Assembly (NCBI GenBank): GCA_902796855.1
Contig: CADBQN010000052.1
Coordinates: forward strand, 1-49,720
Length of the DNA stretch: 49,720 bases
Direction of reading: 5' to 3'
Origin: an uncultured Bacillota bacterium
GTDB taxonomy: Bacteria; Bacillota; Dehalobacteriia; UBA7702
In this document: positions 222 through 37,195 of the stretch, in pieces
How the letters are laid out: each line of letters begins with the position of its first letter
Numbering within the stretch: the first letter of the stretch is position 1
Notes under the pieces: model-generated
Told to the model about the DNA's origin: nothing
The model's database searches: none
What the model saw: only the letters and a program-made list of their open reading frames with translations
Made by a program: the position numbers and the translations under genes

Positions 222-1643
222 TTATTTCTTCTGCGAAGCGATGATCTTTTTGCGGCGAATGTTATAGTACTCACCAAAGGCCAGACCGATGATAAAACCG
301 AGGCCGAGGGCGATATCCGTCACCCAGTCAATGGGCTGTCCGGGTACCCAGAAGAACAGCATCATGGTAAAGATGATGACGAGCTGACAGAAACGGGCCA
401 CGATGATCCCAAACAGATCCGAACCGGGAAAACGATACGCTCTTTTTGTTTCCCTGTCCTTTTTGCGCAGCGCGATGAAAGCTTCACAGCACAGGATAAA
501 GGGCAGCAGGAAGATCAGACTGGTAAAGGAGAACAGCGTCCAGAAGAGATCGCTGGCGGCGCTGCCGCCGATGGAAGCCAGCACGCCGTAAGCAACGATC
601 ACGACGGTCGCGACGATGCCAATGATCACGGCGCTGCCGAGGGGAGCGCCTTTTTTGGTCTGCTTGCCGAACACTTTTGGAAGTTCGTTGCTGTCCGCGG
701 ATTCAATGGCCATATAACCGGCCGCCTGCATCCACGAGGGCCCCTGAGTAATCAGCGTATAAAGGAAAATAAGACCGACCAGGACATAGAGAAGCTTGCC
801 GAGGAATCCGGGGAAAGTAAAGACAAAGCAGTTCAAAATGCCGTTGATGATATCGATTTCCTCATAGGGCGTGATAAAGCAGATAGCGAACGTAAACAGA
901 ATATAGATCGCGATAATCACAACAAGGCTCAGCAGAATCATCCGGGGAAGGTCTCTGCCGGGATCCTTGATGTTTTGCCCCGCGACGGCACTGATTGCGT
1001 CGAACCCCATCACGTTATAAATCAGCGCGGGGAAGAAAGCGAAAGCGGCGCCGATCGTCGGTTTAAAGGACGAAGCGGAAAATTCCGTCGCGGACTGACC
1101 GCCGTTTTTGACCATATACACGACGGCGCACAGAATCAAACAGCCGACAATCGTCAGTTTCGCGAGACCGCCGATATTCCGAAGGGCCGTCGATTCATTT
1201 TGCGGCTGCGAGGCCAAAAAAACGTACACCCATACCAGAACGCAGGAAAATCCCAGGTAAAGACCGAAGGATACTTCCAACCCGGTAAGAAGCGCCAGCA
1301 TTTCACAGATAACGTCCATGACGAAAATCGTCGCCGAAGCGACCCAGATCGCGTTGTTGAGCCAATAATACCAGGTCGTTCTGGCGGCGTTGTCATCGCC
1401 GATGGATATTTTTACCCAATGGTACAGCCCCCCGTCCGAAGGGTAGGTCGACCCCAGTTCCGCCGTGATCAACGCCATCGGCAGGAAAAAGATGACGCCC
1501 AAGATCAGGTACCAGGTGATGGAGCTGATCCCCATCGCGGAGGAAGCCGTTCCGGAATCGAGGAACAGCATGAACATGACGATGCCGAGAAACAGATCGC
1601 CCGCTCTGAGCTTTTTCGGCTGTTCCGCTGTTTTACTTGCCAT
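222..1643 (-). CDS. APC-superfamily amino acid/amine permease
   Basis: A 473-residue integral membrane protein with about 12 hydrophobic segments. The N-terminal region (AGDLFLGIVMFMLFLDSG..., then ITAELGSTYPSDGGLYHWV) has the APC-family pattern of helix 1 and helix 2, as in glutamate/GABA antiporter-like members. The ATG at 1643 is preferred to an in-frame TTG one codon upstream, because AAGGAG sits 9 nt before it. It lies about 100 bp downstream of the pyrrolysine mttB on the same strand, so it probably imports a methylated amine or amino-acid-derived substrate for the two methyltransferases, or exchanges the demethylated product. The substrate itself cannot be read from the sequence. Confidence 0.88.
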   Translation of the reverse strand: MASKTAEQPKKLRAGDLFLGIVMFMLFLDSGTASSAMGISSITWYLILGVIFFLPMALITAELGSTYPSDGGLYHWVKISIGDDNAARTTWYYWLNNAIWVASATIFVMDVICEMLALLTGLEVSFGLYLGFSCVLVWVYVFLASQPQNESTALRNIGGLAKLTIVGCLILCAVVYMVKNGGQSATEFSASSFKPTIGAAFAFFPALIYNVMGFDAISAVAGQNIKDPGRDLPRMILLSLVVIIAIYILFTFAICFITPYEEIDIINGILNCFVFTFPGFLGKLLYVLVGLIFLYTLITQGPSWMQAAGYMAIESADSNELPKVFGKQTKKGAPLGSAVIIGIVATVVIVAYGVLASIGGSAASDLFWTLFSFTSLIFLLPFILCCEAFIALRKKDRETKRAYRFPGSDLFGIIVARFCQLVIIFTMMLFFWVPGQPIDWVTDIALGLGFIIGLAFGEYYNIRRKKIIASQKK

Positions 1644-1709
1644 CAATCATCACTCCTTCACAATGATTTCAATATAGTTTAATTTATCATACCCTTTTGT
1701 CGGTTTGAT

Positions 1710-1742: not shown

Positions 1743-3218
1743 TTATTGCGTTATGCCGAGATCTCTCTCTTCTTTTTCAATGATTTCCCGAATGGTGCCG
1801 GCGGCGTATTCGGAAAGCGGTTCGGGCTGATGGGTTTCGAGAATGCGGCGGGCTTCCTCATCGCATTTCGTTTTCAGGTCGACGCCGCCTTCAAGGAGCC
1901 AGTTGTCCATCAGGTTCCGGTCGATGAATTTCGGCGCGGACTGATAGCCTCTCGTCTTGGCGACGGTGTTCGGTTCCGTCAGGTGGTTGCCGCCGGGGCC
2001 GACACGGATGATGGAATCGACATCGAGGGTTTCGTCATTGACGGGAATGCCCTGGAGGGTGTAGCGGACCATGCCGGCAAATTCGGAGTCCATGACCATC
2101 TGGCCATAGCCCAGCGTGATACCGGATTCCAACATGCCCAGCCCGTAGATGAGGTTGGCACCTGCCAACGCCGGCAACAGAGCTGTTAATGTCTTTTCGT
2201 GACCCGCCTGAATGTCGCTGAGCTTGCTGTCAGCCTACGTGCCCGCGACAAAGCTGGGGATTTTGTAGAAATGAGCCATCCGGGCGACGGCGGCGGAAAT
2301 CATGCCCAGTTCCGGGCAGCCGACGGTGGCAATGGCCCGGCGCAGGTCCATCGCCGTGGTGGAGCTGCCGTAGGTGCAGGGGTTGCCGGGGTTGACCAGC
2401 TGGATCATAACGATATAGGACAGGATCTCGGCGTTGTGCACCACCATGGTGCCGGCGAGGGTCACCGGGGTGGAGCCGCCGGCCATGGCCATGGACAGCG
2501 GGTTGCAGGGAAGGCCGACCGAGGCGTATTCAATGAGCTGTTCGGTGTTGCCTTCGGGGAGCGTCAGGGGGCTGACGGGGCAGCCGCCGCCGGAGATGAT
2601 GGGACGGGCTTTCAGCTTATCCTTGCCGCCGACGATGGCCGCGGCCATTTCGATGGCGAGTTTTGCCTGGTGAGCACTGTCCGCGCCCTGGCTCTGATGT
2701 TTTGTGGTGTTGGAAAGCGTCGCTTCGGTGTTGTGGAGCATGGCGACTCTTTCGTCTTTATCGCTGGCGTAGAGCGTATCCTCAATGACATCGACGTTGG
2801 GCAAAGCGTCGACAAGTTTGGCGACGTCGGCGATGTCCTGTTTCACCGAGGGGCGGCGTTCGCCGGTGTAGGGGTCGATGACCATGATGCCCTGACCGAA
2901 GGTGAGGAAATTGACGCGGCCGCTTTCAAGAACGACATCGTTCTTGGGGTCGCGCCCGGCCATCAGCACACGGGGCGGCGCTTTGCGGACCGAGTCTTCC
3001 ACGAGCCAGGCGGGGATATAGACGCGCTTTTTCTCATGATCGACACGGCAGCCGCCGGCCTCAAAGATCTCGATGGCACGGTCGCTTTCGCAGAAAATGC
3101 CGGTGGTTTCCAAAAGTTCCAGAGTGGCGAGGTGGATGCGGTTGCATTCTTCTTCGGACATGACATTGAGACTGAATCCGGAGAAGATGTCACCGCCGCA
3201 GGAAATGTTTCGTTTCAT
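1743..3218 (-). CDS. mttB: Trimethylamine methyltransferase MttB with in-frame UAG (pyrrolysine)
   Basis: Read straight through the TAG at 2235-2237, this is one 491-residue protein, close to the usual MttB length, with the amber codon at position 328. Frame and family similarity continue on both sides: KIPSFVAGT, then the UAG residue, then ADSKLSDIQAGHEK and LLPALAGANLIYG. This is the site where archaeal and bacterial MttB carry pyrrolysine. Known family role: transfer of a methyl group from trimethylamine to a corrinoid protein (MttC). The gene ends in TAA. The ATG at 3218 is chosen over a GTG two codons upstream because of its distance from AAGGGGA. It lies 54 bp after a Pyl-free paralogue in the same sigma-54 operon. 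No corrinoid protein, pylS or tRNA-Pyl lies in the window. An automatic annotation would split it into two 'pseudogene' pieces. Confidence 0.93.
2235..2237 (-). other. In-frame UAG codon, predicted to be read as pyrrolysine
   Basis: The plus strand reads CTA, so the mRNA reads UAG. The codon sits between Thr (VAGT) and Ala-Asp-Ser-Lys of mttB, exactly at the family's pyrrolysine position. Frame is kept for 164 codons downstream, to a TAA. Conservation on both sides argues against a decayed gene. Confidence 0.9.
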
Positions 3219-3272
3219 CAACACAAATCCCCTTTCGTTAAAATGATTTTTTACGCTGTTGGCAGCGGGATT

Positions 3273-4694
3273 TTACTCATTGGCGAGGTGCGCTTCGGCG
3301 GAAGCGGTGATCCGGTCGAGTTCCGCCACGAGGGCTTCGTCATAGGTGGGAGCGGCGTGGCCGGCAAGGATGCCGTCGATCTTTTCCTGAGCGACTTTGC
3401 GGTGGTTTTCATAGCCTTCGGCAAAGAGATAGCAGTTTTCCGCTTTGGAAGTGAAGATGCTTTCACGGAAGTGCTTAAAGGTGTGCTCATGATCGAGGTA
3501 GTTGCCGCGGGGACCGCGCTCGGCGATGACGTCGAGGGCCAGAGTCTCGTCGTTGACCTCAAAGTTTCTGAAATAGGCCATGGCCTGACGGCAGACCTCC
3601 AGGTCGAGGATGACATCGATGAGGGAACTGCTGAGGCAGCTTTCTCTCGTCCCGACCCAGCAGGCCACGTCCACACGGGTAAGGAGTTTCAGGGCGCAGC
3701 GGAAGACGTTCCGCTCGAACCCGGCTTTTGTCGAGAAATCCTTATATTCCACACTGCATCCCATGGCCGTCGGCAGATCATAGTAGCGGGCCATGTCGCA
3801 GTCGGCGGCGGAGAGCATCACGTATTCGCAGTTTTCGTAGTCGATGCCGGCGTCAAAGAGATTTGGCGCCCCGGCGTCGGAGGAATAGAAGACGCGGGCG
3901 TTTTCGTCGGCGCAGCGGGCGATCATATGACAGGCCAGGTTTTCGGCGTTGACGAGCAGCGTGTCCGCGGCGAAGGTGGCCGGAGACGTGGTGGACATCT
4001 GCGGCAGGGACATCGGCAGGATCGGAACGCCGGCTTTGGCGCTTTCCACAATGGCGTCGGCGATGCCGTGTTCCACGGCAAGGGGAGTCGTCGGCGCGGA
4101 GAGCAGGGAGAGCACCGGATTTTCACGGAACGCCTCGCTGCCGCCGGCCACGGCGCGGCCCAGTTCGATCTGATAGCGGGCCAGTTCCCCCGAGGCGGAG
4201 GAGCACTGGATGTTTTTGCCCATATTCCGGAGGGCGATCTCGGTGGCTTTGAACTCCTGCAGCTCGCCGTGGTACTCACCGGGGAGCATCAGCGGCCAAA
4301 AGCAGTCCATCTCGTCCATATAATCGGCGATGATGCAGAGCTGACGCAGGTCTTCCGTGGTGGCGTAGCGGTTCTTGCCCGTCGCTTCGTCATAAACATA
4401 GGGCACATACCCGGCCGTGGTCGTAAAGGGGTGCGTCACCGAAGGAACCGTCAGCCGATCCTTTTCGTTGAAAGCGCCGAGGGGGAAGGAATGAACGGAA
4501 TGACGGAGCATTTCCTCCACCATCTCTTTGGGAAAACGCACGTTTTCCCCGATGACCTTCGCGCCCTGTTTCGCCAGCATATCGCGGACAGCCTCACTGC
4601 CGATCACGACACCGACCTCTTCCAGGAGTTTTAATGTTGTCTGATGGATCTTTTCCTGTTCTTCGGGTGTCAGTAAAGTCAGTTTTGAAAACAT
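3273..4694 (-). CDS. MttB-family methyltransferase without pyrrolysine
   Basis: A full-length 473-residue member of the trimethylamine methyltransferase family (COG5598), with no internal stop. Aligned by eye to the neighbouring mttB, the pyrrolysine site is occupied by Ser (TAMGC-S-VEYKDF), followed by the conserved AG-x-E-K/R element. Characterised Pyl-free members, such as glycine betaine, proline betaine, carnitine and gamma-butyrobetaine methyltransferases, act on quaternary amines and pass the methyl to a corrinoid protein. This one probably uses a quaternary amine too; which one is unknown. It is the first gene of the operon, with AAGGAG upstream of its ATG and a sigma-54 promoter about 50 bp upstream. 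Confidence 0.88.
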   Translation of the reverse strand: MFSKLTLLTPEEQEKIHQTTLKLLEEVGVVIGSEAVRDMLAKQGAKVIGENVRFPKEMVEEMLRHSVHSFPLGAFNEKDRLTVPSVTHPFTTTAGYVPYVYDEATGKNRYATTEDLRQLCIIADYMDEMDCFWPLMLPGEYHGELQEFKATEIALRNMGKNIQCSSASGELARYQIELGRAVAGGSEAFRENPVLSLLSAPTTPLAVEHGIADAIVESAKAGVPILPMSLPQMSTTSPATFAADTLLVNAENLACHMIARCADENARVFYSSDAGAPNLFDAGIDYENCEYVMLSAADCDMARYYDLPTAMGCSVEYKDFSTKAGFERNVFRCALKLLTRVDVACWVGTRESCLSSSLIDVILDLEVCRQAMAYFRNFEVNDETLALDVIAERGPRGNYLDHEHTFKHFRESIFTSKAENCYLFAEGYENHRKVAQEKIDGILAGHAAPTYDEALVAELDRITASAEAHLANE

Positions 4695-4745
4695 TTAAAA
4701 GAACGCTCCTTTCCCATCTGTTTTAATCTACGCCTTTTGATTATT

Positions 4746-4762
4746 GCAAATTCAATGCCAAA
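4746..4762 (-). promoter_or_regulatory. Sigma-54 (-24/-12) promoter of the methyltransferase operon
   Basis: On the minus strand the sequence reads TTGGCA-TTGAAT-TTGCA. The GG and GC dinucleotides are exactly 12 positions apart (-25/-24 and -13/-12), a near-consensus TGGCAC-N5-TTGC element. It predicts a transcription start near 4735 and a 5' leader of about 41 nt before the first methyltransferase gene. A gene for a sigma-54 activator lies immediately upstream. Confidence 0.85.
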
Positions 4763-4965: not shown

Positions 4966-6903
4966 TTATCCGCCGGCGTTCTCCTCACCCAGTTTCAGTT
5001 TCCGGTAAAAGGTCGCCCGGGAGACGCCCATCCGCCGGGCCGCCTCGCTGACGTTGCCGTCGGCATCGTCGAGAACACGCAAAAGCTCTTCCCTGTCCCG
5101 ATTGAGCCGGGATTCCTTTTTCCGCTCCCGCAGGCCGCGGATGGAAGCGGCGGCCGCCGGCGCGGGACGCGCCGCCGCGGCGGGAAGCACCGCCGGAGCG
5201 CCGATTTTGCCGCCAAAGACGGAAAGAATGTGGCGGGGCAGATATTGGCTGGTGATGGCCTCGCCGCCGGAAAGATACATCATGCGGTCGGCGACGTTTT
5301 CCAGCTCGCGGACGTTGCCGGGCCAGTCATAGCGGGAGAGAACGTCGATGACGTCAGGCTGAAGGAGGCGCATAAAATCCTCGGGCTCACAGTCGGCGTT
5401 TTTGGCCCAAAAGGAGCAGAACAGCGGCAGAATATCCTCCTTCCGCTCCCGCAGCGGCGGGATGTGGAGGCCGATGACATTCAGCCGAAAATACAGATCC
5501 TCACGGAAACTGTTGTCTTTCGATTCCTGATAGAGGTCGCGGTTGGTGGCGCAGATGATCCGCACATTCACCGGCATTTCTTTGGCGCCGCCGACTCGGG
5601 TGACGCTCCGCTCCTGGATCACCCGGAGGAGCGTCACCTGCTGATCCAGAGGCATGTCGCCGATTTCGTCGAGAAAGATCGTACCTCCGTCGGCCAACTC
5701 GAATTTCCCCGGCTTGCCGCCTTTTTTCGCGCCGGTAAAGGAACCCTCCACATAGCCGAAGAGCTCGCTGGCGATGAGTTCCCGGGGGATCGCGCCGCAG
5801 TTCACGGCGACAAAGGGGCCGTTCCGCCGGGGGCTGGCGTTGTGGATGGACTGGGCGAAGAGCTCCTTTCCGGTGCCGCTTTCCCCCTCGATGAGCACGT
5901 TGCAGTCGCTCATCGCCGCCTGCTTCGCCAGAGCGATGATCTCCATCAGCTTGGGGCTGGTGGTGACGATGTCCTTAAACTGGAACCGGGCCTGAGCGCC
6001 GCTCATGCGGGTGACCATCCGCCGCACCTGGGTCACGGGCTTCAAAACGAGGATCCCCTTGAGGATCATCTCGCCGGCGGCGGTCAGCGGCACCCCGGAG
6101 ACGACGAAGGAGAGATCCTTTTTCCCCGAGGAGACGTGCATTTCCACATCGGTGAAGGGACGCTTTTTCCAGAACATCCAGTTCAGCTCGTTGCTGTTCT
6201 TATCGTTGAGCCGTTCTTTGAAGAAAGCGGCGATTTCCCCCTCGGAACCTCGCCAGAGGTCGTTGGGCCCGAAATTGAGGAACTCGCAGTTCCCCTCCCG
6301 GTCGAGGACGGCGATCCCTTCGGAAATCCCCGCGAGGATGCTGTGCAGATAATCGTTGACCTGCTGCAGCTGACGGTTGCTGGACGCCAGCTCCGAGGTG
6401 CGCCGTTCCACCATCCGTTCCAGCTCTTCCTTGACGGTCTTATACTGCGTGATATCGCGGCTCACGTCCAGATACTCGATGGCGGTGCCGTCTTCCCGGT
6501 AAAACCCGCGGCCGATGCTCTCCATCCAGTAGATATGGCCGTTGAGCTTGACGCGGTATTCATACTGATAGTTGGGGTTCTCGGCGTTGACATGGGACAT
6601 CATTTCGTAGATCTTTTCCCGATCCTCCTCCAGTACCAGTTCAAGGGTGTCGGTATGGAGCAGTTCCTCCTGGGTCTTGCCGTAGAAGCTCGCCAGCGTC
6701 TTGTTGACATAGCGAAGATAGAACTGTTCGTCGGAGATCTCCACCAGTTCGGACATGTTTTCCAGGATCAGGTCGTACTGGTTCTTGCGCAGTTCCAGCT
6801 CGCGGATGGTCTCCTGCTGCTGTTTGATGATATCTTTCAGGCCTTCCAGCCGTTCCTCCAGATAGCGGCATCGCTCTTCCATATAACGTTGTCGTTCGTC
6901 CAC
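4966..6903 (-). CDS. PAS-domain sigma-54-dependent transcriptional activator
   Basis: A 645-residue activator. In order: an N-terminal coiled coil (about 10-45), a PAS domain (about 45-155), a second coiled coil and PAS-like segment (about 155-290), the AAA+ domain and a C-terminal Fis-type HTH (about 600-640). Walker A is GESGTGKE (about 340-347). The sigma-54 contact loop reads GSFTGA in place of the usual GAFTGA (about 387-392). Walker B is FLDEIGD (about 410-416). The GTG at 6903 is chosen because GGAGG lies 8 nt upstream; the GTG three codons earlier overlaps that site. It probably senses the substrate or a redox/energy signal through its PAS domains and activates the methyltransferase operon from its sigma-54 promoter. 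Confidence 0.92.
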   Translation of the reverse strand: MDERQRYMEERCRYLEERLEGLKDIIKQQQETIRELELRKNQYDLILENMSELVEISDEQFYLRYVNKTLASFYGKTQEELLHTDTLELVLEEDREKIYEMMSHVNAENPNYQYEYRVKLNGHIYWMESIGRGFYREDGTAIEYLDVSRDITQYKTVKEELERMVERRTSELASSNRQLQQVNDYLHSILAGISEGIAVLDREGNCEFLNFGPNDLWRGSEGEIAAFFKERLNDKNSNELNWMFWKKRPFTDVEMHVSSGKKDLSFVVSGVPLTAAGEMILKGILVLKPVTQVRRMVTRMSGAQARFQFKDIVTTSPKLMEIIALAKQAAMSDCNVLIEGESGTGKELFAQSIHNASPRRNGPFVAVNCGAIPRELIASELFGYVEGSFTGAKKGGKPGKFELADGGTIFLDEIGDMPLDQQVTLLRVIQERSVTRVGGAKEMPVNVRIICATNRDLYQESKDNSFREDLYFRLNVIGLHIPPLRERKEDILPLFCSFWAKNADCEPEDFMRLLQPDVIDVLSRYDWPGNVRELENVADRMMYLSGGEAITSQYLPRHILSVFGGKIGAPAVLPAAAARPAPAAAASIRGLRERKKESRLNRDREELLRVLDDADGNVSEAARRMGVSRATFYRKLKLGEENAGG

Positions 6904-6923
6904 GGTGAACACCTCCTTTTTCC

Positions 6924-6952
6924 ACTATACCACGGGGAAAATAAAAAATCAA
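6924..6952 (-). promoter_or_regulatory. Sigma-70-type promoter of the sigma-54 activator gene
   Basis: TTGATT and TATAGT are separated by 17 bp on the minus strand, ending 21 bp before the GTG start of the activator. Confidence 0.75.
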
Positions 6953-6957
6953 CCGCG

Positions 6958-6987
6958 AAAAAACGTCTCCCCGCGGCGGGGAGACGT
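6958..6987 (-). terminator. Terminator of the NUDIX gene
   Basis: ACGTCTCCCC and GGGGAGACGT form a long stem followed by six Ts on the minus strand, directly after the NUDIX stop codon. Confidence 0.9.
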
Positions 6988-6989
6988 CC

Positions 6990-7562
6990 TCAGCGGAAGT
7001 ATGCCGCGCGGCGCGCCAGTTTCCGGTAGATTTCGTTCATATGGGGTTCGGTACGGTCGGCGAGGATCTCATCCATTTCCCGCCAGGCGACGCCGCTGTT
7101 CTCGTCGGGCTTGACCCGGAGCGGCTCCGTTTCGTCACAGCAAAAGAGAAAGGTGACGTTGAGGTGGAGGTGGGCCGGGACGTAAACGCCGTTTTTCTCG
7201 TGGGGCTGCACGGCGAGGCGCTCCAGCGAAAGGGGCCCCTCCCCCAGCGGACGCGGCGCTTTCACGCCGGTCTCTTCCGTCAGCTCCCGCCGGGCGACGG
7301 CGGCGAGGTCCGCGTCGCCGTCAGCGTGACCGCCGACCCAGCTCCAGGCCCGGTAGATATGGTGAAAGACCATCAGCGCCCTGTCGCGCCGGGGGTTCAC
7401 CGCCCAGGCCGAAGCCGTGAAGTGAAAGAGCGTGTTTTCCCGCGTCAGCGGGTCCGGCGAACACTCAAGGAACGCGAGCATCGCCTCACGGTCGGCCCGC
7501 TCCCGCTCATCGGCGGGAACGTAATCCCGCAGCAGCTGTTTTAGACCTTCTCTGTCGCTCAT
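6990..7562 (-). CDS. NUDIX hydrolase
   Basis: A 190-residue protein with a Nudix box, GHADGDADLAAVARRELTEE and then TGV. The catalytic REL-x-EE core is intact, while the first Glu of the consensus G-x5-E is Ala. NUDIX proteins hydrolyse nucleoside diphosphates linked to another moiety; the substrate here is unknown. The ATG at 7562 is preceded by a GGAAGG site. It follows a terminator and ends in its own terminator, so it appears to be a single transcription unit. Confidence 0.88.
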   Translation of the reverse strand: MSDREGLKQLLRDYVPADERERADREAMLAFLECSPDPLTRENTLFHFTASAWAVNPRRDRALMVFHHIYRAWSWVGGHADGDADLAAVARRELTEETGVKAPRPLGEGPLSLERLAVQPHEKNGVYVPAHLHLNVTFLFCCDETEPLRVKPDENSGVAWREMDEILADRTEPHMNEIYRKLARRAAYFR

Positions 7563-7574
7563 TTTTTCCTTCCT

Positions 7575-7601
7575 AAAAGGGCCTCCCTTCGGGGAGGCCC
7601 T
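7575..7601 (-). terminator. Terminator of the alcohol dehydrogenase/degV operon
   Basis: AGGGCCTCCC and GGGAGGCCCT (the latter within GGGGAGGCCCT) form a GC-rich stem followed by TTTT on the minus strand, just after the alcohol dehydrogenase stop. Confidence 0.85.
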
Positions 7602-7608
7602 GCTTCCT

Positions 7609-8760
7609 TTATTTCAATTCCTCACAGTAGACGCTTTCGATCAGCGCGGTCAGTTCCTCCCGGGACGGCTGCACGGGGTTGGCCGCCAGCGTCGGATCGT
7701 TCAGCGCCATTTCCGCCAAAGCCGGGATATCGCCGACGGCGAAACCGGTCTCCCGCAGCGACGGGATGGGCAGGGCGCTCAGCCGGTCGCTCATGTGCCG
7801 GACGGTGCGGACGCCGAGGGTCACATGGTCGCTGAGGCCGCAGACACCGCCGAGATCGGCGACTCTCTCACCGATGGCGCGGCGGTTAAACTCCAGCACG
7901 TAGGGCATGACCATGCCCACGGCCTGACCGTGGGGAACGCCGGTAAAATTCTCAATGGAAAAGCCAAGGCTGTGCATGAGGCCGAGGCCGCTGTTGGAAA
8001 AGGCGTATCCCGCCAGGGACGCGGCCCAGCAGAGATCGGTCCTGGCGGCGACGTCGGCGGGGTCCTTCATCACCCGGGGCAGCGCCTTGTCGATGAGGCC
8101 GACGGCCTTCAGCGCCAGTCCGTCGGTAAAGGGATTGGCGGTGACAGCGCAGTAGGCCTCCATGGCGTGGGTCAGGGCGTCCATGGCCGTGGCCGCGGTG
8201 ATATCGGCGGGAAGCTCCGTCATCAACAGCGGGTCGCTGACGGCCAGCGCCACGAGACAGTGATCGTCGACGCCGATGGCTTTGCCGCGGCGGTCCACGT
8301 CGGTGAGGACGAAGAACCGGGTCACTTCGGCACCGGTGCCCGCCGTGGTGCTCACCGCCGCCACCGGCGCGCCGGGGCGAAGGGAGCGGTTGACGCCGAT
8401 ATAATGACGGGCGGAGCCGCCGTTGGCGGCGACAAGAGAAGCGGCTTTGGCCGTGTCCGCCGCAGAACCGCCGCCGACGGCGACAATGAAATCAGCGTTC
8501 AGCGCCGCGAAAGCCGCGGCGGCGGCGTCCGCCGTTTCCGCCGAGGGATTGGCGATGACGCCGTCAAAAAATTCATAACGGACACCGGCTCCGTCCAGAG
8601 CGGCGGTAACGCGCTCCATCAGCGGCAGTCCGCGCAGAGTCCTGTCGGTGACGATGAGACCGCGTTTCAACTCTCTGTTTTGGGCGAACTCCGTCAGCGC
8701 GGCGACGCTGCCGGGGCCGACGGCAAAACGGGCCGGATAAAACAGTTCGGTATAGTCCAT
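7609..8760 (-). CDS. Iron-containing alcohol dehydrogenase
   Basis: A 383-residue group III alcohol dehydrogenase. The NAD(P)-binding motif GGGSAADTAK is at 96-105. The expected metal ligands are Asp194 and His198 (MDALTHAMEAY), His263 (LMHSLG) and His277 (VPHG), exactly the family spacing. It oxidises alcohols or reduces aldehydes/ketones in the cytoplasm; the substrate cannot be inferred. It follows degV by 24 bp and shares its promoter; a GGAG site precedes the ATG. Confidence 0.92.
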   Translation of the reverse strand: MDYTELFYPARFAVGPGSVAALTEFAQNRELKRGLIVTDRTLRGLPLMERVTAALDGAGVRYEFFDGVIANPSAETADAAAAAFAALNADFIVAVGGGSAADTAKAASLVAANGGSARHYIGVNRSLRPGAPVAAVSTTAGTGAEVTRFFVLTDVDRRGKAIGVDDHCLVALAVSDPLLMTELPADITAATAMDALTHAMEAYCAVTANPFTDGLALKAVGLIDKALPRVMKDPADVAARTDLCWAASLAGYAFSNSGLGLMHSLGFSIENFTGVPHGQAVGMVMPYVLEFNRRAIGERVADLGGVCGLSDHVTLGVRTVRHMSDRLSALPIPSLRETGFAVGDIPALAEMALNDPTLAANPVQPSREELTALIESVYCEELK

Positions 8761-8784
8761 GAGGAAGCTCCGTTTCGTGCGCCC

Positions 8785-9645
8785 TTATTTCGCCGGGGTC
8801 TCCGTGACAAAGAGAATGCCCAGGCACTTGGGGCCGCAATGGCAGGAAATCGTGCAACTGGCGGTGGAACGATAGACCTTTTCAAAGGGGAGCGTCTCCA
8901 GGACGGTCTTTTCCACCATGTCGCGGATCTCCTCCTCAATGCCGGAATCGGTGATGAAGATCTTGTCGGTGCGGATATCGTCATACTCCGCGAGCTTGTC
9001 TTTTACATATCTGCGCAGCACCTTTTCACTGCTGCCGCGGTACTTTTTCACAACGTTCATGCCGCCGGAGGTGTTGTCCACCTCGATCCGGGGGCGGATG
9101 TTCAGCAGGCTGCTGGCGATGGAGGCCATAGAGGAGCAGCGCCCGCCGGCGTGGAGGAATTCCAGGTTATCCAAAACGAAGCTCCCGTGATAGCAGCGGT
9201 GATGTTCGTCAAAATAAGCCCGGATCTCCTCGGCGCTCTTTCCTTCCCGCACCATCCGCCCGGCGTCGATGACCTGCAGGCCGATGGCGCTGGAGAGGTT
9301 GCGGCCGTCGATGGGATAGACATGGTCCAGTTCCTCGGCGGCGGCGACGCAGTTCTGATAGGAGCTGGACAGCGCGTGGCCCAGACAGAAGTGAATGACT
9401 TCGTGGCCCTGTTCCACAAAGGGACGGAAAAATTCCCGATATTCCCCGGCGTTGATGGCCGACGTTTTGGGCAGCGCTTTCCGCTCGTAGTAGGCGCGGT
9501 AGATATCATCGGGGGTGATATCCACGTTATCCATATATTCTTTATCTTCCAGCAAAATATGGTACGGAATGGTGTGAACGTCGTATTCCCGCATCAGTTC
9601 TTCATTTAAATCGCAGGTTCGGTCCGCGCAAAGGACGATTGACAT
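8785..9645 (-). CDS. DegV family fatty-acid-binding protein
   Basis: A 286-residue DegV protein starting MSIVLCADRTCDLN, with the family's substrate-binding region (KTSAINAGEY, then LGHALSSSYQN) and the later LDNLEFLHAGGRCS element. DegV proteins (FakB-like) bind a fatty acid for phosphorylation by FakA. No fakA is visible nearby. The ATG at 9645 is preferred over a TTG three codons upstream because GAGGG lies 9 nt before it. Confidence 0.9.
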   Translation of the reverse strand: MSIVLCADRTCDLNEELMREYDVHTIPYHILLEDKEYMDNVDITPDDIYRAYYERKALPKTSAINAGEYREFFRPFVEQGHEVIHFCLGHALSSSYQNCVAAAEELDHVYPIDGRNLSSAIGLQVIDAGRMVREGKSAEEIRAYFDEHHRCYHGSFVLDNLEFLHAGGRCSSMASIASSLLNIRPRIEVDNTSGGMNVVKKYRGSSEKVLRRYVKDKLAEYDDIRTDKIFITDSGIEEEIRDMVEKTVLETLPFEKVYRSTASCTISCHCGPKCLGILFVTETPAK

Positions 9646-9894: not shown

Positions 9895-10776
9895 ATGAAT
9901 CGCTACATCGCCTTTTGCCGCATTGCCGAAAGCGGCAGCTTCAGCAAGACCGCCGAAGAGATGGGCTATTCGCAGTCGGCGGTGAGCCAGATGATCCGCT
10001 CCCTTGAGACCGAGGTATCTCTGCCGCTGCTCATTCGTTCCCACGGCAAAATCGCCCTGACCGAAGAGGGAGAAGCGCTGCTCCCGCGGATCCGCTCCCT
10101 CGTCAACGATTATCATATGCTCCGGGAGAAAACCCGGGAACTCCGGGACGACGACGCCGGCGAGATCCGCGTCGGCACCATCGCCAGCGTCTCCCACGCC
10201 TGGCTGCCAAAGATGATCAAAGCCTTCCGGGAGCGCTATCCCGACGTCCATTTCAGCCTCGACCAGGGGGATTACAACGACATCGCCGGCTGGATCAAAA
10301 ACGGCGACGTCGATTTCGGATTCGTCAACGGCGACGCCGTTTCCGGTCTTTCCGAAATCTTTCTGGCCCGGGACGAGATGATGGCGGTGCTGCCGCCTTC
10401 CCATCCGCTGTGCCGTCTTGAGGCCGTTCCCCTTGAGGCCCTCGCCGACGAATCCTACATCCGCCTGGAGGAAGGCGACTTCAACGAACCGATGAACGCC
10501 TTTCGCCGCCGCGGCCTCAGGCCCAACGTCCGCCTCAGGGTCTACGACGACTACACCGTTTTGGCCATGATCGAAGAGGGGCTGGGATACAGCATCATCC
10601 CGGAAATGAACCTGAACCGCCACAACTACCGGGTAGAAAAACGGCCCATCGAGCCGAAGATCACCCGGAACCTCGCCGTGGTCTACGATCATTTTCAGCG
10701 GCTGCCGAAGATGAGCCGCCTCTTTATCGACTTTATGACCGAACATTACTTCCCCGCCGCGGCGGAAAAGCGCTGA
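9895..10776 (+). CDS. LysR family transcriptional regulator
   Basis: A 293-residue LysR protein. The N-terminal winged HTH (about 1-60) is recognisable from FSKTAEEMGYSQSAVSQMIR followed by SLE. The C-terminal periplasmic-binding-like effector domain (about 90-290) begins at GEIRVGTIASVSH. It is followed by azlC after 30 bp on the same strand, so it probably controls branched-chain amino acid export as well as its own gene. The dyads upstream support autoregulation. Confidence 0.93.
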   Translation: MNRYIAFCRIAESGSFSKTAEEMGYSQSAVSQMIRSLETEVSLPLLIRSHGKIALTEEGEALLPRIRSLVNDYHMLREKTRELRDDDAGEIRVGTIASVSHAWLPKMIKAFRERYPDVHFSLDQGDYNDIAGWIKNGDVDFGFVNGDAVSGLSEIFLARDEMMAVLPPSHPLCRLEAVPLEALADESYIRLEEGDFNEPMNAFRRRGLRPNVRLRVYDDYTVLAMIEEGLGYSIIPEMNLNRHNYRVEKRPIEPKITRNLAVVYDHFQRLPKMSRLFIDFMTEHYFPAAAEKR

Positions 10777-10806
10777 TTTCAAAAAAGAACCCCGAAGGAA
10801 AAAACC

Positions 10807-11529
10807 ATGAAAAGCGAACTCCAAAAAAGCCTGAAAGCGGCCTTTCCCAAGACCATCCCCATCATCACCGGCTACCTCTTTCTCGGCAGCGGTTTCGGCA
10901 TCCTCCTTTCCGCCGCCGGATATCCCTGGTACTGGACGACGGTCATGGCGGTCTTCATCTACGCCGGCATCGGCCAATACGTCGCCGTGAACATGCTCGT
11001 CCCCGGCCTGAGCCTGATCAACGTCTTTATCGTCCAGTTCACCCTCAACGCCCGCCACATCTTCTACGGCATCTCCATGCTGGAACGGTTCAACGCCATG
11101 GGAAAGCTCCGTCCCTATATGATCTTTACGATGACCGACGAGACCTTTGCCCTGCTCTGCTCCGCGAAGGCGCCGAAAAACGTCGATAAAAAATGGTTCG
11201 ATTTCTTCATCGCCTTTCTCGACCACATCTACTGGATCTGCGGCTGCACCCTCGGCGGCGTCATCGGCGCGCTCCTCCGCTTCGATACCACCGGCATCGA
11301 CTTCATCATGACGTCCCTCTTTGTCACCATCATCATCGACCAGTGGAAGGACGCCAAAGACCACCTGCCGGTGATCATCGGCGGCGTCACGTCCCTGATC
11401 TGCCTGCTGATCTTCGGCGCGGACCGGTTCATCATCCCGGCGCTGCTGGCCCTCACCGCGGGACTCTTGATCTTCCGCGGAAAGATGGAACAAAACGCCG
11501 CGGAAAAGGAGGAAGCCCATGCTGAGTAA
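10807..11529 (+). CDS. azlC: AzlC family branched-chain amino acid exporter subunit
   Basis: A 240-residue membrane protein with the AzlC pattern: FPKTIPIITGYLFLGSGFGI near the N terminus, and NARHIFYGISMLERF, a family hallmark, in the middle. With AzlD it forms a permease that exports branched-chain amino acids or analogues. Its last bases overlap azlD by 11 nt, so the two are translationally coupled. Confidence 0.92.
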   Translation: MKSELQKSLKAAFPKTIPIITGYLFLGSGFGILLSAAGYPWYWTTVMAVFIYAGIGQYVAVNMLVPGLSLINVFIVQFTLNARHIFYGISMLERFNAMGKLRPYMIFTMTDETFALLCSAKAPKNVDKKWFDFFIAFLDHIYWICGCTLGGVIGALLRFDTTGIDFIMTSLFVTIIIDQWKDAKDHLPVIIGGVTSLICLLIFGADRFIIPALLALTAGLLIFRGKMEQNAAEKEEAHAE

Positions 11530-11848
11530 CACCGCGATCATCATCTATATCCTCGTCACCGCCGCCGGCGTTTTCGCCACCCGGGTCTTTTCCTTTCTGC
11601 TCTTTCCCGCCGGGCGGCAGACCCCCCGGGTTATTCTCTTTTTAGGCAACGCCCTGCCCTGCGCCCTGATGGCGCTGCTGGTGGTCTACTGCCTGAAAAA
11701 CGTCTCGATCCCGACGTACCCCCACGGCCTGCCGGAGCTCATCGCCATCGCCGTCACCGCCGGGCTCCACCTTTGGAAGCGGAGCACGCTGCTGAGCATC
11801 AGCGTGGGCACCGTTCTTTATATGGTTCTGGTGCAAATGGTGTTTTAA
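11519..11848 (+). CDS. azlD: AzlD family branched-chain amino acid exporter subunit
   Basis: A 109-residue protein with four hydrophobic segments and the AzlD pattern (TRVFSFLLFP, LGNALPCALMALLVVYCL). It is the small partner of AzlC, whose gene it overlaps, and the last gene of the lysR-azlC-azlD unit. Confidence 0.92.
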   Translation: MLSNTAIIIYILVTAAGVFATRVFSFLLFPAGRQTPRVILFLGNALPCALMALLVVYCLKNVSIPTYPHGLPELIAIAVTAGLHLWKRSTLLSISVGTVLYMVLVQMVF

Positions 11849-11871
11849 GAACGCTCTTTTTGTGCTATAAT
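11843..11871 (+). promoter_or_regulatory. Promoter of the YbjQ-family gene
   Basis: An extended -10 (TGCTATAAT) with a weak -35 (TTTTAA) at 17 bp, 31 bp before the start codon. Confidence 0.55.
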
Positions 11872-11902
11872 GGAAGAAAAGAAACGCAAGGGAGGATCAA
11901 AC

Positions 11903-12217
11903 ATGATGCTTATGACAACAACCGACGTCATCCCCGGCAGAAGCTACGCCGTCCTCGGACTGGTGATGGGATCGTTCGTCAACTCCAAGGATTTTGTCAA
12001 AGACATCGGCGCCGGCCTGAAATCCCTCGTCGGCGGTGAATTGAAGAGCTATACGAGAATGATGGAGGAATCCCGCCAGCAGGCCCTGACCAAACTGGAA
12101 AGCGAGGCTCGGGCCCTCGGCGCCGACGCGGTGATCGGCGTCCGCTTCACCACCAGCGCCATCATGCAGGGCGCTTCGGAGATCCTGGCCACCGGCACCG
12201 CCATAAAATTCCAATAA
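11903..12217 (+). CDS. YbjQ/UPF0145 family protein
   Basis: A 104-residue protein with the family pattern: an N-terminal TTTDVIPGRSYAVLGLVMGS, then EARALGADAVIGVRF. Homologues form pentameric rings; the function is unknown. GGAGG lies 9 nt before the chosen ATG, and an in-frame ATG 33 nt upstream has no such site. The flavoprotein gene follows 18 bp later, so they are probably cotranscribed. Confidence 0.9.
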   Translation: MMLMTTTDVIPGRSYAVLGLVMGSFVNSKDFVKDIGAGLKSLVGGELKSYTRMMEESRQQALTKLESEARALGADAVIGVRFTTSAIMQGASEILATGTAIKFQ

Positions 12218-12235
12218 AGGAAAGGAAGACCGAAC

Positions 12236-12865
12236 ATGAAAGTTCTGATGATCAACGGCAGCAGCCACAAATCCGGCTGCACTTTTACGGCGCTGCAGGA
12301 AGCGGAAGCGGCGCTGAACAACGAGGGCATTGAGACGGAGATCTTCCAGGTGCCGACGAAACCGATCCGCGACTGCGTCGCCTGCGGCGCCTGCCGCAAG
12401 AACGGCGGCAAATGCGCTTTCGGCGACGAAGACGGTGTCAACGAGTTCATTGCCAAAGCCGCCGAAGCCGACGGCTTCATCTTCGGCACGCCGGTCTACT
12501 ACGCCCACCCCACCGGCAGGATCCTTTCGTTCCTTGACCGGACGTTCTACGCCGGCGGCGCGAATTTTGCCTATAAGCCCGGCGCGGCGGCGGCCTCGGC
12601 CCGCCGGAGCGGCACCACCGCCAGCTTTGACGTGCTGAACAAGTATTTCACCATCTGCAACATGCCGGTGGTGGCCTCGTCCTACTGGAACAACATCCAC
12701 GGCAACGCCGCCGAAGAGGCCGTGCAGGACATCGAAGGCCTCCAGACCATGCGCCAGCTGGGCAAAAACATGGCCTGGCTGCTGAAATGCATTGAACTGG
12801 GGAAGGAAAACGGCCTGAGCCACCCCGTACCGGAACAGAAAACGCCGACCAATTTCATCCGCTGA
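12236..12865 (+). CDS. NAD(P)H-dependent flavodoxin-fold oxidoreductase
   Basis: A 209-residue flavoprotein of the NADPH-dependent FMN reductase family. The N terminus MKVLMINGSSHKSGCT is the phosphate-binding loop for FMN, and GTPVYYAHPTG is the second flavin loop. A Cys cluster (CVACGACRKNGGKC, about residues 47-60) resembles that of iron-sulfur flavoproteins, so a [4Fe-4S] cluster is possible. It ends at a strong terminator. Confidence 0.88.
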   Translation: MKVLMINGSSHKSGCTFTALQEAEAALNNEGIETEIFQVPTKPIRDCVACGACRKNGGKCAFGDEDGVNEFIAKAAEADGFIFGTPVYYAHPTGRILSFLDRTFYAGGANFAYKPGAAAASARRSGTTASFDVLNKYFTICNMPVVASSYWNNIHGNAAEEAVQDIEGLQTMRQLGKNMAWLLKCIELGKENGLSHPVPEQKTPTNFIR

Positions 12866-12880
12866 ACAGCAGCATCGCAA

Positions 12881-12920
12881 ACAGCGCGGGAACGATTCGC
12901 TCGTTCCCGCGCTGTTTGAT
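12881..12920 (+). terminator. Terminator after the flavoprotein gene
   Basis: ACAGCGCGGGAACGA pairs with TCGTTCCCGCGCTGT (15-bp stem) followed by TTGAT. The 140 bp beyond it, up to the GIY-YIG gene, hold no gene I can support. Confidence 0.8.
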
Positions 12921-13062
12921 TATAAAAAAGCTGATTCAATCGCCCGCATGCCGAGACAAGGAAATCTCCTGACAGCTCGGAATACCTTCACATGGGCATT
13001 CAGGATGTTTTTGCCGAAAGGAGGGCATCTCTCACGCCGTAAGCCGGCGGTCGATCTTCATT

Positions 13063-13404
13063 TCATTTCTCCTCCCCGCATTGGGGCAGTTCGGGAAGGC
13101 GCGCCGCCGCCGTAAAGGGGATTCCCGCCAGAGCGGGACAGAAAACAACGAGCTTTTCCGGATCGGCGGCGAGCCGCCGCTTTTTTTCCGGGCGGAGCCG
13201 CTTCACGGCGTATTCCCCTTTGGCGGCGTCGTTGAGATCCGCGACCTCCCAGAGGGCGGCGACGCGGCGGGGCGGATGGGAACGCGTGTATTTGGCGCAC
13301 TTGGGCCCCTTTTCGCAGTGATCCCGAAGCCGCCGCTCAAAATCTTTGGCGATTCCGGTATAGAGCGTATTCCCCTCGCATTCCAGCATATACAAAAAAG
13401 CCAT
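13063..13404 (-). CDS. GIY-YIG nuclease-domain protein (UPF0213-like)
   Basis: A 113-residue protein with the GIY-YIG fold signature in degenerate form: FLYMLEC, then TLYTGIAKDFERRLRDH. The Arg of the catalytic region is present. These small single-domain proteins are common in Bacillota; their physiological role is not established. A TATAAT box lies just upstream. Confidence 0.85.
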   Translation of the reverse strand: MAFLYMLECEGNTLYTGIAKDFERRLRDHCEKGPKCAKYTRSHPPRRVAALWEVADLNDAAKGEYAVKRLRPEKKRRLAADPEKLVVFCPALAGIPFTAAARLPELPQCGEEK

Positions 13405-13424
13405 CGTTTCCTCCTCTTTTCCCC

Positions 13425-13430
13425 ATTATA
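13425..13430 (-). promoter_or_regulatory. -10 box of the GIY-YIG gene
   Basis: TATAAT on the minus strand, 20 bp before the start codon. It is divergent to the promoter of the neighbouring unknown gene. Confidence 0.55.
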
Positions 13431-13453
13431 ACAAAAGAAGGGAAAAGCGTCTA

Positions 13454-13482
13454 TTGAAAAATCGTCCCGTTTCCGTTATAAT
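13454..13482 (+). promoter_or_regulatory. Sigma-70-type promoter of the unknown gene/DUF6472 pair
   Basis: TTGAAA and TATAAT with a 17-bp spacer, about 53 bp before the start at 13536. Confidence 0.8.
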
Positions 13483-13535
13483 GCAAAGAAACGATTCCGC
13501 GCGTTCCGCCATCAAGAAAAAAAGGAGGGCCCTTT

Positions 13536-14282
13536 ATGCCCGACCATCTCCAAAGTTTTCAGCTGGATTTTCTCACCCCGGATCTCTTTCAGAAGATCGT
13601 CAAAAAAGCCGTCGTCCAGGGGACGCGGATCCCCGCCGCCCACGGGAACTACATCAATTTCCATATGGGCGATATGATCCTCGTCATCCGCACCGCCTTC
13701 GACCCGGAAAAGGGGCTGGACTACATCACCGGTTTCGACTCCCACGCCAAGGGCTGCTGTGTTTGGGACTGCGTGATCGACGCCGTGGAAGAGCGGGCCG
13801 ACGGCGACGTTACCGCCAGAACGGTGCGCGTTGAGCGCGGCGGCGCGGTACTGCCCCTGCCGCTGATCAACGGCGATATTCTTCCGGACTGGGGAAAAGG
13901 GACGTCCTTTCAGGCGCAGGTGGCGGCCTATCCCACCGAAATCTCCTTTTTTGAGGAGGAAGAAACGGCCCGGAACGAAGGCGGCGGCGACTTCCGCCGC
14001 ATCGTCGCCGCCGGCGGCGGCGACGTGGTGATCCGCGGCGAGGCCAAAGGCTTCCGCCGGGGCGAGACCAGCTACATGGGCGGCACCCTGACCCGATTCC
14101 TCGTGGCCCTCGTCGCCACCGAAGCGGGCGACATCGAACTCGTCTTCCCCGACCGTCTCGTCACCGAAGGTGAGGAAGCGCTGCTGCGCCCCGGCGTTTT
14201 TCTCCGCGCCAAAGGGGAACTGGCGGCGAACCCCGCCATCCTCGGCCGGGAAAAGGGATTTCCAAAGGAGGAAGAAGCATGA
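13536..14282 (+). CDS. Conserved-looking protein of unknown function
   Basis: A 248-residue soluble protein with no signal peptide and no membrane segment. I do not recognise the family. Visible features: an aromatic and glycine-rich N-terminal half (AAHGNYINFHMGDMILVIR, DSHAKGCCVWDCV) and a C-terminal part rich in beta-type sequence. GC-rich codon use matches the neighbours, which supports real coding. Its stop overlaps the start of the DUF6472 gene (ATGA), so the two are translationally coupled. Confidence 0.75.
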   Translation: MPDHLQSFQLDFLTPDLFQKIVKKAVVQGTRIPAAHGNYINFHMGDMILVIRTAFDPEKGLDYITGFDSHAKGCCVWDCVIDAVEERADGDVTARTVRVERGGAVLPLPLINGDILPDWGKGTSFQAQVAAYPTEISFFEEEETARNEGGGDFRRIVAAGGGDVVIRGEAKGFRRGETSYMGGTLTRFLVALVATEAGDIELVFPDRLVTEGEEALLRPGVFLRAKGELAANPAILGREKGFPKEEEA

Positions 14283-17251: not shown

Positions 17252-18913
17252 TCACAAACGGATCAATTCATAGATGATTTTCGTCATCTGCGCTCTCGTC
17301 GCCGTGTCCGCCGGGACAAAGCGGCCGTTCATGCCGTTGATGATGCCGGCGGAAACGAGGGCGTCAACGGGGGCTTTCGCCCAGCCGCTGATGGATGACG
17401 CGTCGGCAAAGACCGCCGAAGTCTTCTTCGGCAGGTCGATGTTGGCGTACTGCGTGTAGCGATAGAGGAACGCCGCCATTTCCTGGCGCGTTACGTTCGC
17501 GGCAGGATCAAAGGCCGTGGGGCTTTTGCCGTTGGTGATGCCGTTTTCCACGGCCCAGAGCACCGCACCGTAATACCAGCGGCCCGCTTCCACATCCTTA
17601 AAGGGATTCGCCGTGTCCGTGATGGGCTGTCCCTCCATGTTCCAGAGGATCCGCACCACCATGGCGCGGGTCAGTTTCCCCTCGGGATCAAAGGTCGTCG
17701 GCGAGACGCCGTTCATGATGCCCTGTTCCACGATGCGGCTGGCGGCGGCGTCATACCATTTTCCCTGATTCAGGTCGGTAAAGACGGAAACGTCGCCCTT
17801 TTCCTTACAGTTTTCCAGCGCGTAGCGCAGGTTGAAATACGTTTCGCCCCACTGCGGTTCCGCCGCGGCGAGGTCGCTCTCGCTGACCTTTTGGGCGGCC
17901 TCATAGGCCGTTTTCAGGTGCTTCACACCGATGTCGGTATAGCGGCCCGCGTCGGCGAGGATCGCTTCGGCCTGAGCCGTCGCCGCGGTGAAATCCGAAG
18001 ACCGCACCGTCAGATCGAGCCAGACCGGCGTGCCGCCGCTGAGGACGTTGTACAGGTCGCAGAATTCCAGATAATACTGGTGATCAAAGACCGAGGCGTT
18101 GACGTAGGCTTCCCCCTTCACGAGGCCGGTATGGACTTTATCCAAAAGCCCGAAATTGACCCAGGGTTCGTCGGAGGAGGGATCGTAGCCCCCGCCCTCG
18201 GCGTACTGTAGCCCGGTCAGGGCCGTGACGACGCAGCCGTAGGAGAGCGTCGCCGAGCTGGAAGCGCCCATTCCGGGGTTGTAGTTCCCGTTTTTGATCT
18301 TTTCGAGGAAACCGTCGATGGCCCCGCGGATCTGCGTTCCGTAGCGGGGATCGTCCAGATAAGGGGCCAGCACCATAATGGCCCAGCCGCCGATATCGGG
18401 GCCGAGATCCAGATTGGATATGTTTTTGCAGCAGGCATCGATGTAGGCCTGTTCCTCTTCGGCGGTCATCGCCGCGCCGGCGGCTTTGAGACCGGCGAAG
18501 TTGAAAACGGGCACGGCATAGGGCGCGTCGGGGCCGGAAGCTTTGGCTTTGGCGACATAGTTGACGCCGTTGTAGTGATAGGGGTCGCCCCCCATGGCCA
18601 GAATGGCCATGATTTTCGCGCCGTTATGGTCGGGGTTGTCGTATTCCATACTGTAGGTGTAACCGCTCAGCCGGCCGTTCCTGGCGGCATAGGCGGCCCA
18701 TACGGCCCAATAGCTGTTTAAAGTTCGATTCGCCTGATAAAATTTAATGGCTTTATCTCTGCCGTCGTTCAGTGCTTCCTGTTCGCCTGCCGCGGCGGAG
18801 ATCGTCGCCTGAGGCCCGTCCGTTATTTCCGCTGCCGACGCGCACACGCCGACGGAGAGAAACACCGCTGCGGCCATTAATACGACAAGGAATTTTGTCA
18901 TTCGGGTCTTCAT
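17252..18913 (-). CDS. SLH-anchored alpha/alpha-toroid protein (transcobalamin N-terminal-like)
   Basis: A 553-residue exported protein with a signal peptide ending near VCASA (about residue 27). Residues 45-350 contain repeated amphipathic helices of the prenyltransferase/terpenoid cyclase alpha-alpha barrel type (YWAVWAAYAARNG, GAKIMAILAMGGDPYHYNGV, GGWAIMVLAPYLDDPRY, YGCVVTALTGLQYA), the fold of the N-terminal domain of transcobalamin and intrinsic factor. Three SLH domains (about 375-553) anchor it to cell-wall polymers. It sits between two genes encoding beta-domain-like DUF4430 proteins. I infer a cobalamin-binding surface complex; binding itself is not shown by the sequence. Confidence 0.82.
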   Translation of the reverse strand: MKTRMTKFLVVLMAAAVFLSVGVCASAAEITDGPQATISAAAGEQEALNDGRDKAIKFYQANRTLNSYWAVWAAYAARNGRLSGYTYSMEYDNPDHNGAKIMAILAMGGDPYHYNGVNYVAKAKASGPDAPYAVPVFNFAGLKAAGAAMTAEEEQAYIDACCKNISNLDLGPDIGGWAIMVLAPYLDDPRYGTQIRGAIDGFLEKIKNGNYNPGMGASSSATLSYGCVVTALTGLQYAEGGGYDPSSDEPWVNFGLLDKVHTGLVKGEAYVNASVFDHQYYLEFCDLYNVLSGGTPVWLDLTVRSSDFTAATAQAEAILADAGRYTDIGVKHLKTAYEAAQKVSESDLAAAEPQWGETYFNLRYALENCKEKGDVSVFTDLNQGKWYDAAASRIVEQGIMNGVSPTTFDPEGKLTRAMVVRILWNMEGQPITDTANPFKDVEAGRWYYGAVLWAVENGITNGKSPTAFDPAANVTRQEMAAFLYRYTQYANIDLPKKTSAVFADASSISGWAKAPVDALVSAGIINGMNGRFVPADTATRAQMTKIIYELIRL

Positions 18914-18970
18914 CGCGATCCGCCTTTCTTTCAGAGTTGCGTCAAGTTCTTTGTTCTTTTATCGGCAGTC

Positions 18971-20404: not shown

Positions 20405-20541
20405 ATTTTTCTTCCTTCCTTTCTTTTCCCGAAACATCGACGGGCGGACGAGGTTCTTTCACCGGGGAAAGACCGCGCCCCGCCTGTCCCGCGCCGAGGA
20501 GCGACAGAAAAACGACCCGGCCGCTTTCCGATCTCTTCCCG

Positions 20542-25391: not shown

Positions 25392-25448
25392 TTGTCAAAA
25401 TCATGTTCATGTCACGGCTCTGAGAGGAAGCGTTTCGGACATCCATCC

Positions 25449-25576
25449 GCGAAACAGTATCCTGACTGAGCCTCAAGGCGGCCGCCGCCTTCCCGGGGAG
25501 ACCCGGTGGCCTTCGACGGACGCTCCGCATCACAGTGACCGCATCGTTGGGGAATCTCACCCCATTCCTGTCTCGC
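25449..25576 (-). promoter_or_regulatory. Cobalamin riboswitch controlling the ECF transporter operon
   Basis: On the minus strand the closing stem is GCGAGACAG/CTGTTTCGC. Inside are GGGGTGAGATTCCCC, the core GCGGTCACTGTGA, a CCGGGAAGGC element and AGTCAGGATACTG. These are the conserved cobalamin riboswitch blocks. It precedes the EcfT-EcfAA-CbrT-isomerase operon and supports cobalamin as the transported vitamin. Confidence 0.92.
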
Positions 25577-25654
25577 GAAATCGCGCGGTGTTTTCTATAT
25601 GACACCCGTTCAAAAGGTGTTTTCGTTCAAATGAAATCCGCGCGCGCCCTCCGA

Positions 25655-36686: not shown

Positions 36687-37014
36687 GTTGTTCCCTTCCT
36701 TCCACGGACGGTTTTTTCTTATCATACCACATTTCACCCGGTTTTGCGTGAAAAAACGCGGCGGTTTGGGGAAATTCGGCGCGTTCCTTCGGCTGACGTT
36801 TCCTTTTCGGTGATAAGAAAAACGGGATAAACAAAAAAAACAGCGAAAAAACGCGAAAAGGACGCGAAAAACGGCGGATTCGTTCGTCGGGCGTTAGTGA
36901 TGATGTTGTAAGATATACGCGAATATAGAAAAAGAACAATGAGGGTTACGGAGAGTATACGTACATGGCTGACGTGTATTTCGTGACGCTCATTTTTCTT
37001 TCTTTTCAACCGAA

Positions 37015-37165
37015 TCGTGATGGCAGCGTGGGAATCGGGTGAAACGCCCGAGCTCTACCAGGGAACTGTAAGGCGGAGCGCTCTTCAAAACGCCACTGGC
37101 GAAAAAGCCGGGAAGGCGAAGAGACGCGAGGAAGCCAAGCCAGGATACGAAGCGCCGCCGAAATC
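37015..37165 (+). promoter_or_regulatory. Cobalamin riboswitch upstream of the beta-propeller/giant SLH genes
   Basis: The plus strand shows ATCGGGTGAAACGCCCGA, CAGGGAACTGTAAGGCGG, ACGCCACTGGCG, GCCGGGAAGGCG and AAGCCAGGATACG, in the canonical order of the cobalamin riboswitch. A strong terminator follows at 37196. The first complete gene downstream starts at 37645. Between yaaA and this element (about 330 bp) I see no gene. Confidence 0.93.
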
Positions 37166-37195
37166 TCCTGGGGTGTATCCGCGCGCGACAAAAGG

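Follow-up and report, generated by a model that had tools for sequence, protein, structure and literature searches.

In methyltransferases of the MttB family, the imine of pyrrolysine (Pyl) adds the amine substrate, and the methyl group is transferred to the Co(I) of a corrinoid protein and then, in bacteria, to tetrahydrofolate. For the MttB of the solved structures 7XCL and 7XCM, the roles of Gly110, Met249 and Tyr364 have been described, and Gly110 and Tyr364 are reported to be fully conserved in Pyl-containing MttB (PMC9842639). Among bacteria, Candidatus Formimonas warabiya strain DCMF (Peptococcaceae) carries 82 mttB genes, with Pyl in 23 of its 96 methylamine methyltransferases, together with pylT, pylSn, pylSc and pylBCD; Dehalobacterium likewise possesses the biosynthesis genes (PMC6778437). 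Pyl-type mttB genes have been catalogued in gut bacteria as well (PMC10653893). The initial annotation of the DNA studied here, which proposed a Pyl-containing mttB gene, rightly described the bacteria known to do this as a limited set, but similar examples from the same broad group have already been published (PMC6778437). Since Pyl in related Peptococcaceae is already published, the phenomenon reported below is of a known kind.

The window, i.e. the whole stretch of DNA analysed, is contig C52 (49,720 bases) of assembly G000, which comprises 2.11 Mb in 84 contigs and is 98.4% complete with 1.84% contamination. Reading of its frames placed the mttB gene on the minus strand, at 1743..3224, with a GTG start at 3224 or an ATG start at 3218 and a TAA stop; the initial annotation had named no strand. 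The only in-frame stop is the TAG at 2235..2237 (-), which is codon 328 if counting starts at the ATG, or codon 330 if it starts at the GTG. Standard translation splits the gene into two ORFs, 2235-3224 and 1743-2177, and a product of 491-493 aa is obtained when the TAG is read through. In profile searches this read-through protein is a PF06253 member, and it spans all 469 positions of the trimeth_pyl equivalog TIGR02369 (1-469), scoring 662.6 bits where the cut-off is 525. A phmmer search against solved structures gave the trimethylamine methyltransferase chains 7XCM and 7XCL as best matches. The two proteins align over their full length, the TAG residue falls exactly on X/K334, the pyrrolysine of 7XCL/7XCM, and the equivalents of Gly110, Met249 and Tyr364 are retained. 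Differences from the MttB of these structures are the bacterial origin of the window gene and a Gln in place of Thr111 (as well as the lack of mttC in its operon, see below). The initial reading of an in-frame TAG with MttB protein on either side is thus borne out by the full-length TIGR02369 match, by the 7XCL column and by the TAGs of orthologues, and the assignment of this codon as the Pyl site of MttB is upheld by the alignment of codon 328 with residue 334.

Orthologues of the window gene with the TAG at the same codon were found in two other genomes of the family that also have pyl genes: on C56 of G001, assigned to Candidatus Cryptoclostridium obscurum (CAJFVQ01), where the gene is 94% identical, and on C228 of G003, assigned to uncultured Peptococcaceae bin.66 (CALFRX01). 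Between the window gene and that of G003, dN/dS was 0.083 downstream of the TAG and 0.071 upstream; with G001 it was 0.04 downstream, dS being saturated upstream. The frame past the TAG is under purifying selection, and the low dN/dS, together with the retention of the TAG in orthologues, indicates that the C-terminal third of the window MttB is selected as protein. No description of the Pyl genes of these two organisms was found in the literature searched.

A match to the Rfam family PYLIS_3 (RF02510) starts at the TAG (2138..2237, minus strand; 73.1 bits, gathering threshold 38), and such matches are present at the TAG of all 10 Pyl-MttB genes of the genome. Folding of the window segment was no better than that of shuffled sequences (z of 0.12), and no consensus base pairs were found over 12 sequences at this region; a structured PYLIS RNA element after the UAG is thus not supported. 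Given this lack of structural support, the match probably reflects coding-sequence conservation.

The initial annotation had reasoned that tRNA-Pyl and PylS must lie elsewhere in the genome, and both were indeed found in the same assembly, together with pylBCD, on contig C5, so that the absence of pyl genes, which it had named as a refutation, is not what the genome shows. The locus was read as L012 (C5:40001-60000), to which the following coordinates refer: pylSc at 7324-8169 (TIGR02367, 320 bits, cut-off 178), pylD at 8267-9070 (205 bits), tRNA-Pyl with anticodon CUA at 10253-10325 (ARAGORN), pylB at 10424-11467 (458 bits), pylC at 11464-12633 (371 bits), a methyl-THF:corrinoid methyltransferase (MeTr) at 12717-13529, and pylSn at 13546-13923 (TIGR03912, 131 bits, cut-off 51). 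PylB, PylC and PylD score above their equivalog cut-offs, so that each protein of the set exceeds a curated threshold. The complete set spans 6.7 kb, and PylS is split, both PylSn and PylSc being encoded. Hallmarks of tRNA-Pyl are an anticodon stem of 6 bp, a single base between the acceptor and D stems, and a variable loop of 3 bases; the predicted fold has an anticodon stem of 6 bp, an acceptor-D linker of 1 nt and a variable loop of 3 nt. Gene order (Sc-D-T-B-C-MeTr-Sn) departs from the T-Sc-B-C-D-Sn arrangement that is usual in bacteria (PMC3941956). A direct repeat of about 200 bp, noticed by eye, lies at L012:9100-9560, between pylD and the tRNA-Pyl region. As the assembly is fragmented, the linkage of C5 with C52 rests on binning; both traits were seen in all 4 genomes of the family examined, each having PylSn and at least one TAG-bearing mttB. 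Misbinning is unlikely, because PylSn is present in all 4 family genomes and in 8 of the 43 genomes of the class.

The claim of a Pyl-containing MttB gene stands, but the window gene is far from alone: itself included, the genome has 16 predicted Pyl genes. The genome contains 18 MttB-family genes, of which 10 have a single TAG and 8 are Pyl-less, as well as 6 MtbB genes, every one of which has a TAG; compared with the 82 mttB genes of strain DCMF, this is the content of a 2.1 Mb genome. All 16 TAGs lie at the homologous codon of their own family, which brings the predicted Pyl genes to at least 16. Internal TAA or TGA codons were absent from the MttB, MtbB and MtmB matches of the genome. The use of TAA or TGA as sense codons was considered for 9 "internal stop" cases among the MttB matches of relatives, and was rejected on inspection, the positions lying outside the gene, either ahead of its start or beyond its end. 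When 44 MttB-family proteins from 4 genomes were placed in a tree, the 20 TAG-bearing MttB all fell on one side of a single branch (SH-aLRT 99), and Pyl-less proteins formed a separate part of the same tree. These Pyl-less proteins, which lack the TAG, belong to the PF06253 family of the glycine betaine methyltransferase and other MtxB; one of the 8 adjoins the window mttB.

Pairwise identity among the 10 Pyl-MttB paralogues is 30-52%. The TIGR02369 cut-off is passed by the window MttB and by 8 of the 9 others, and the residue after Gly110 is variable: Thr in 7XCL, Gln in the window protein, and Glu, Ala, Cys, Val or Thr in other paralogues. One Pyl-MttB gene, C19:45625-47013 (L021:5625-7013, plus strand), is below the cut-off, carries Phe at the Tyr364 position and has diverged at its C-terminus; this paralogue may be decaying. 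In G001, a genome of about 2.1 Mb, 42 MttB-family matches were detected, fragments among them. Plasmid searches with the window MttB returned only relatives below 60% identity.

The only MtmB-family gene of the genome (C44:12655-14049, i.e. L027:1489-2883, plus strand) has no TAG and a Trp at the Pyl202 column. Its score to the solved MtmB is 128.8 bits, and it is accompanied by a corrinoid protein gene (L027:790-1425) and a methyl-THF-methyltransferase-like gene. MtqB, for which the first function of a Pyl-less MtmB homologue was reported in 2026, is of the same Pyl-less type (PMC13044021). We considered the C44 gene as a novel kind and rejected this view, since Pyl-less homologues make up most MtmB matches in the phylum and a function has been reported for MtqB (PMC13044021). 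A plasmid search with the MtmB-like protein gave no match.

To what extent UAG still serves as a stop was estimated with a simple ORF caller on 458 kb of stretches of the genome, partly chosen around methyltransferases: of 375 gene-like ORFs, 30 ended with TAG, and 15 of these ends were Pyl sites, leaving about 15 ordinary TAG terminators among some 360 genes (about 4%). Pyruvate kinase (as read from its sequence) and radA are among the ordinary TAG-ended genes, and release factor 1 (prfA) is present with 523.8 bits. Full reassignment of UAG is thereby ruled out: the codon is predicted to be in dual use, as stop and as Pyl, with partial reassignment. Given RF1 and the proportion of TAG gene ends, some truncated MttB of 327 aa is expected. 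In another Pyl-MttB gene, C51:14192-15664 (L015:8192-9664, plus strand), an internal TAG and a TAG terminator coexist, and the next in-frame stop, 14 codons further, is also TAG. Pyl proteins outside the methyltransferases were looked for in the same 458 kb; each of the two long frames that span a TAG looks like a pair of adjacent genes sharing one frame, and neither was retained. One consists of radA followed by a disA-like gene (L071:7327-9813, plus strand), with a ribosome-site-like sequence after the radA TAG; in the other, a further ORF comes after a glycosyltransferase-like one. Read-through of the radA UAG in a Pyl-using cell would yield a RadA-DisA fusion.

The window mttB is the second of three genes on the same strand. 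It is preceded by the Pyl-less MttB homologue, at 3273..4694 (-), which matches PF06253 with 193.7 bits and TIGR02369 with 248.6 bits, below the cut-off of 525, and it is followed by a permease of the APC family for amino acids or amines, at 222..1646 (-) (PF13520, 140 bits). Upstream of the operon, at 4966..6912 (-), a regulator combines a PAS domain, a sigma-54 interaction AAA+ domain and a Fis-type HTH. A sigma-54-type promoter, TGGCATTGAATTTGCA (GG-N10-GC), lies at 4745..4760 (-), about 50 bp before the start at 4694. Sigma-54 matches with two mismatches are expected 10.5 times per window, and about 0.03 times on the same strand of the intergenic stretch that contains this element. In G001 (L077), the same four genes are found in the same order (regulator, 482-2380; Pyl-less homologue, 2650-4071; Pyl mttB; permease, 5651-7072), with an element TGGCATTTCTTTTGCA at the same place and spacing; the module of four genes and its sigma-54 element are therefore conserved in a second genus. 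From this layout we infer that the operon is sigma-54-regulated and substrate-inducible. No corrinoid-protein gene is part of it: 10 B12-binding_2 matches were found in the genome, none of them on C52. Elsewhere in the window, cobalamin riboswitches were found at 25434-25602 (-), upstream of minus-strand ECF-transporter genes, and at 36970-37170 (+). The window also encodes three S-layer homology domain proteins (17252-20437, minus strand, and 40554-44579, plus strand), one of which is 1341 aa long and also contains a Listeria-Bacteroides repeat domain.

Taken as a whole, these comparisons make us highly confident in predicting that the window gene encodes a genuine Pyl-containing methylamine methyltransferase of the MttB type, expressed through partial reassignment of UAG. 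PylBCD would convert lysine into pyrrolysine, the split PylS (PylSn and PylSc) would charge tRNA-Pyl(CUA), and at UAG codon 328 insertion of Pyl by the ribosome would compete with release factor 1. As expected for the family, the amine substrate would be bound by the Pyl imine, and its methyl group passed to a Co(I) corrinoid protein and on to tetrahydrofolate. Judging from the gene layout, mttB would be co-transcribed with the Pyl-less homologue and the permease from the sigma-54 promoter, under control of the PAS-sigma-54 activator, the operon forming a substrate-inducible module for uptake and demethylation of methylated amines.

Were the TAG a true stop, the gene would be a pseudogene, a sequencing error, or two half-proteins translated separately. 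The two ORFs given by standard translation would fit such a situation, as would the presence of RF1 and of other TAG-ended genes, but the same TAG stands in two orthologues with a dN/dS of 0.04-0.08 downstream, the same codon recurs in 10 MttB and 6 MtbB genes without ever being TAA or TGA, and its column is that of Pyl in a solved structure, in a genome with pyl genes; we therefore consider a true stop extremely improbable. Decoding of UAG by a near-cognate or suppressor tRNA (e.g. for Gln, Lys or Tyr), with no pyrrolysine involved, has nothing specific in its favour and is scarcely credible in a genome that encodes a dedicated tRNA-Pyl, a split PylS and PylBCD, and where, in the matches examined, no read-through UAG codon lies outside the catalytic Pyl column of a Pyl-dependent family.

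The identity of the substrate, for which the initial annotation named trimethylamine, leaves more room for debate. That this Pyl methyltransferase acts on a tertiary amine other than trimethylamine, perhaps the product of the adjoining Pyl-less MttB homologue, is a possibility to be taken seriously, if not the one we favour. The low identity among the 10 Pyl paralogues and the variation, next to the active site, of the residue after Gly110 suggest that several of them may use amines other than trimethylamine, and the conserved operon, which joins the window gene to a Pyl-less homologue and to a dedicated permease, points in the same direction. On the other hand, the window protein scores far above the cut-off of the trimethylamine methyltransferase equivalog, as do 8 of the 9 others, and it retains the equivalents of Gly110, Met249, Pyl and Tyr364. 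A more specific proposal, which we make tentatively and hold to be rather unlikely, is that the conserved sigma-54 module demethylates one imported quaternary amine in two steps: the first methyl group would be taken by the Pyl-less homologue, and the next one, from the resulting tertiary amine, by the Pyl-MttB. If true, this would mean that the Pyl-MttB paralogues of the family have spread to substrates beyond trimethylamine.

With the prediction of a genuine Pyl-containing MttB, an uncultured family related to the Peptococcaceae joins the organisms with an expanded genetic code. A high load of predicted Pyl genes, 16 in 2.1 Mb, coexists in the genome studied with live UAG termination, and all 16 would be split by standard annotation. 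The diversity of the Pyl-MttB paralogues makes the existence of Pyl enzymes for substrates beyond mono-, di- and trimethylamine a directly testable question.
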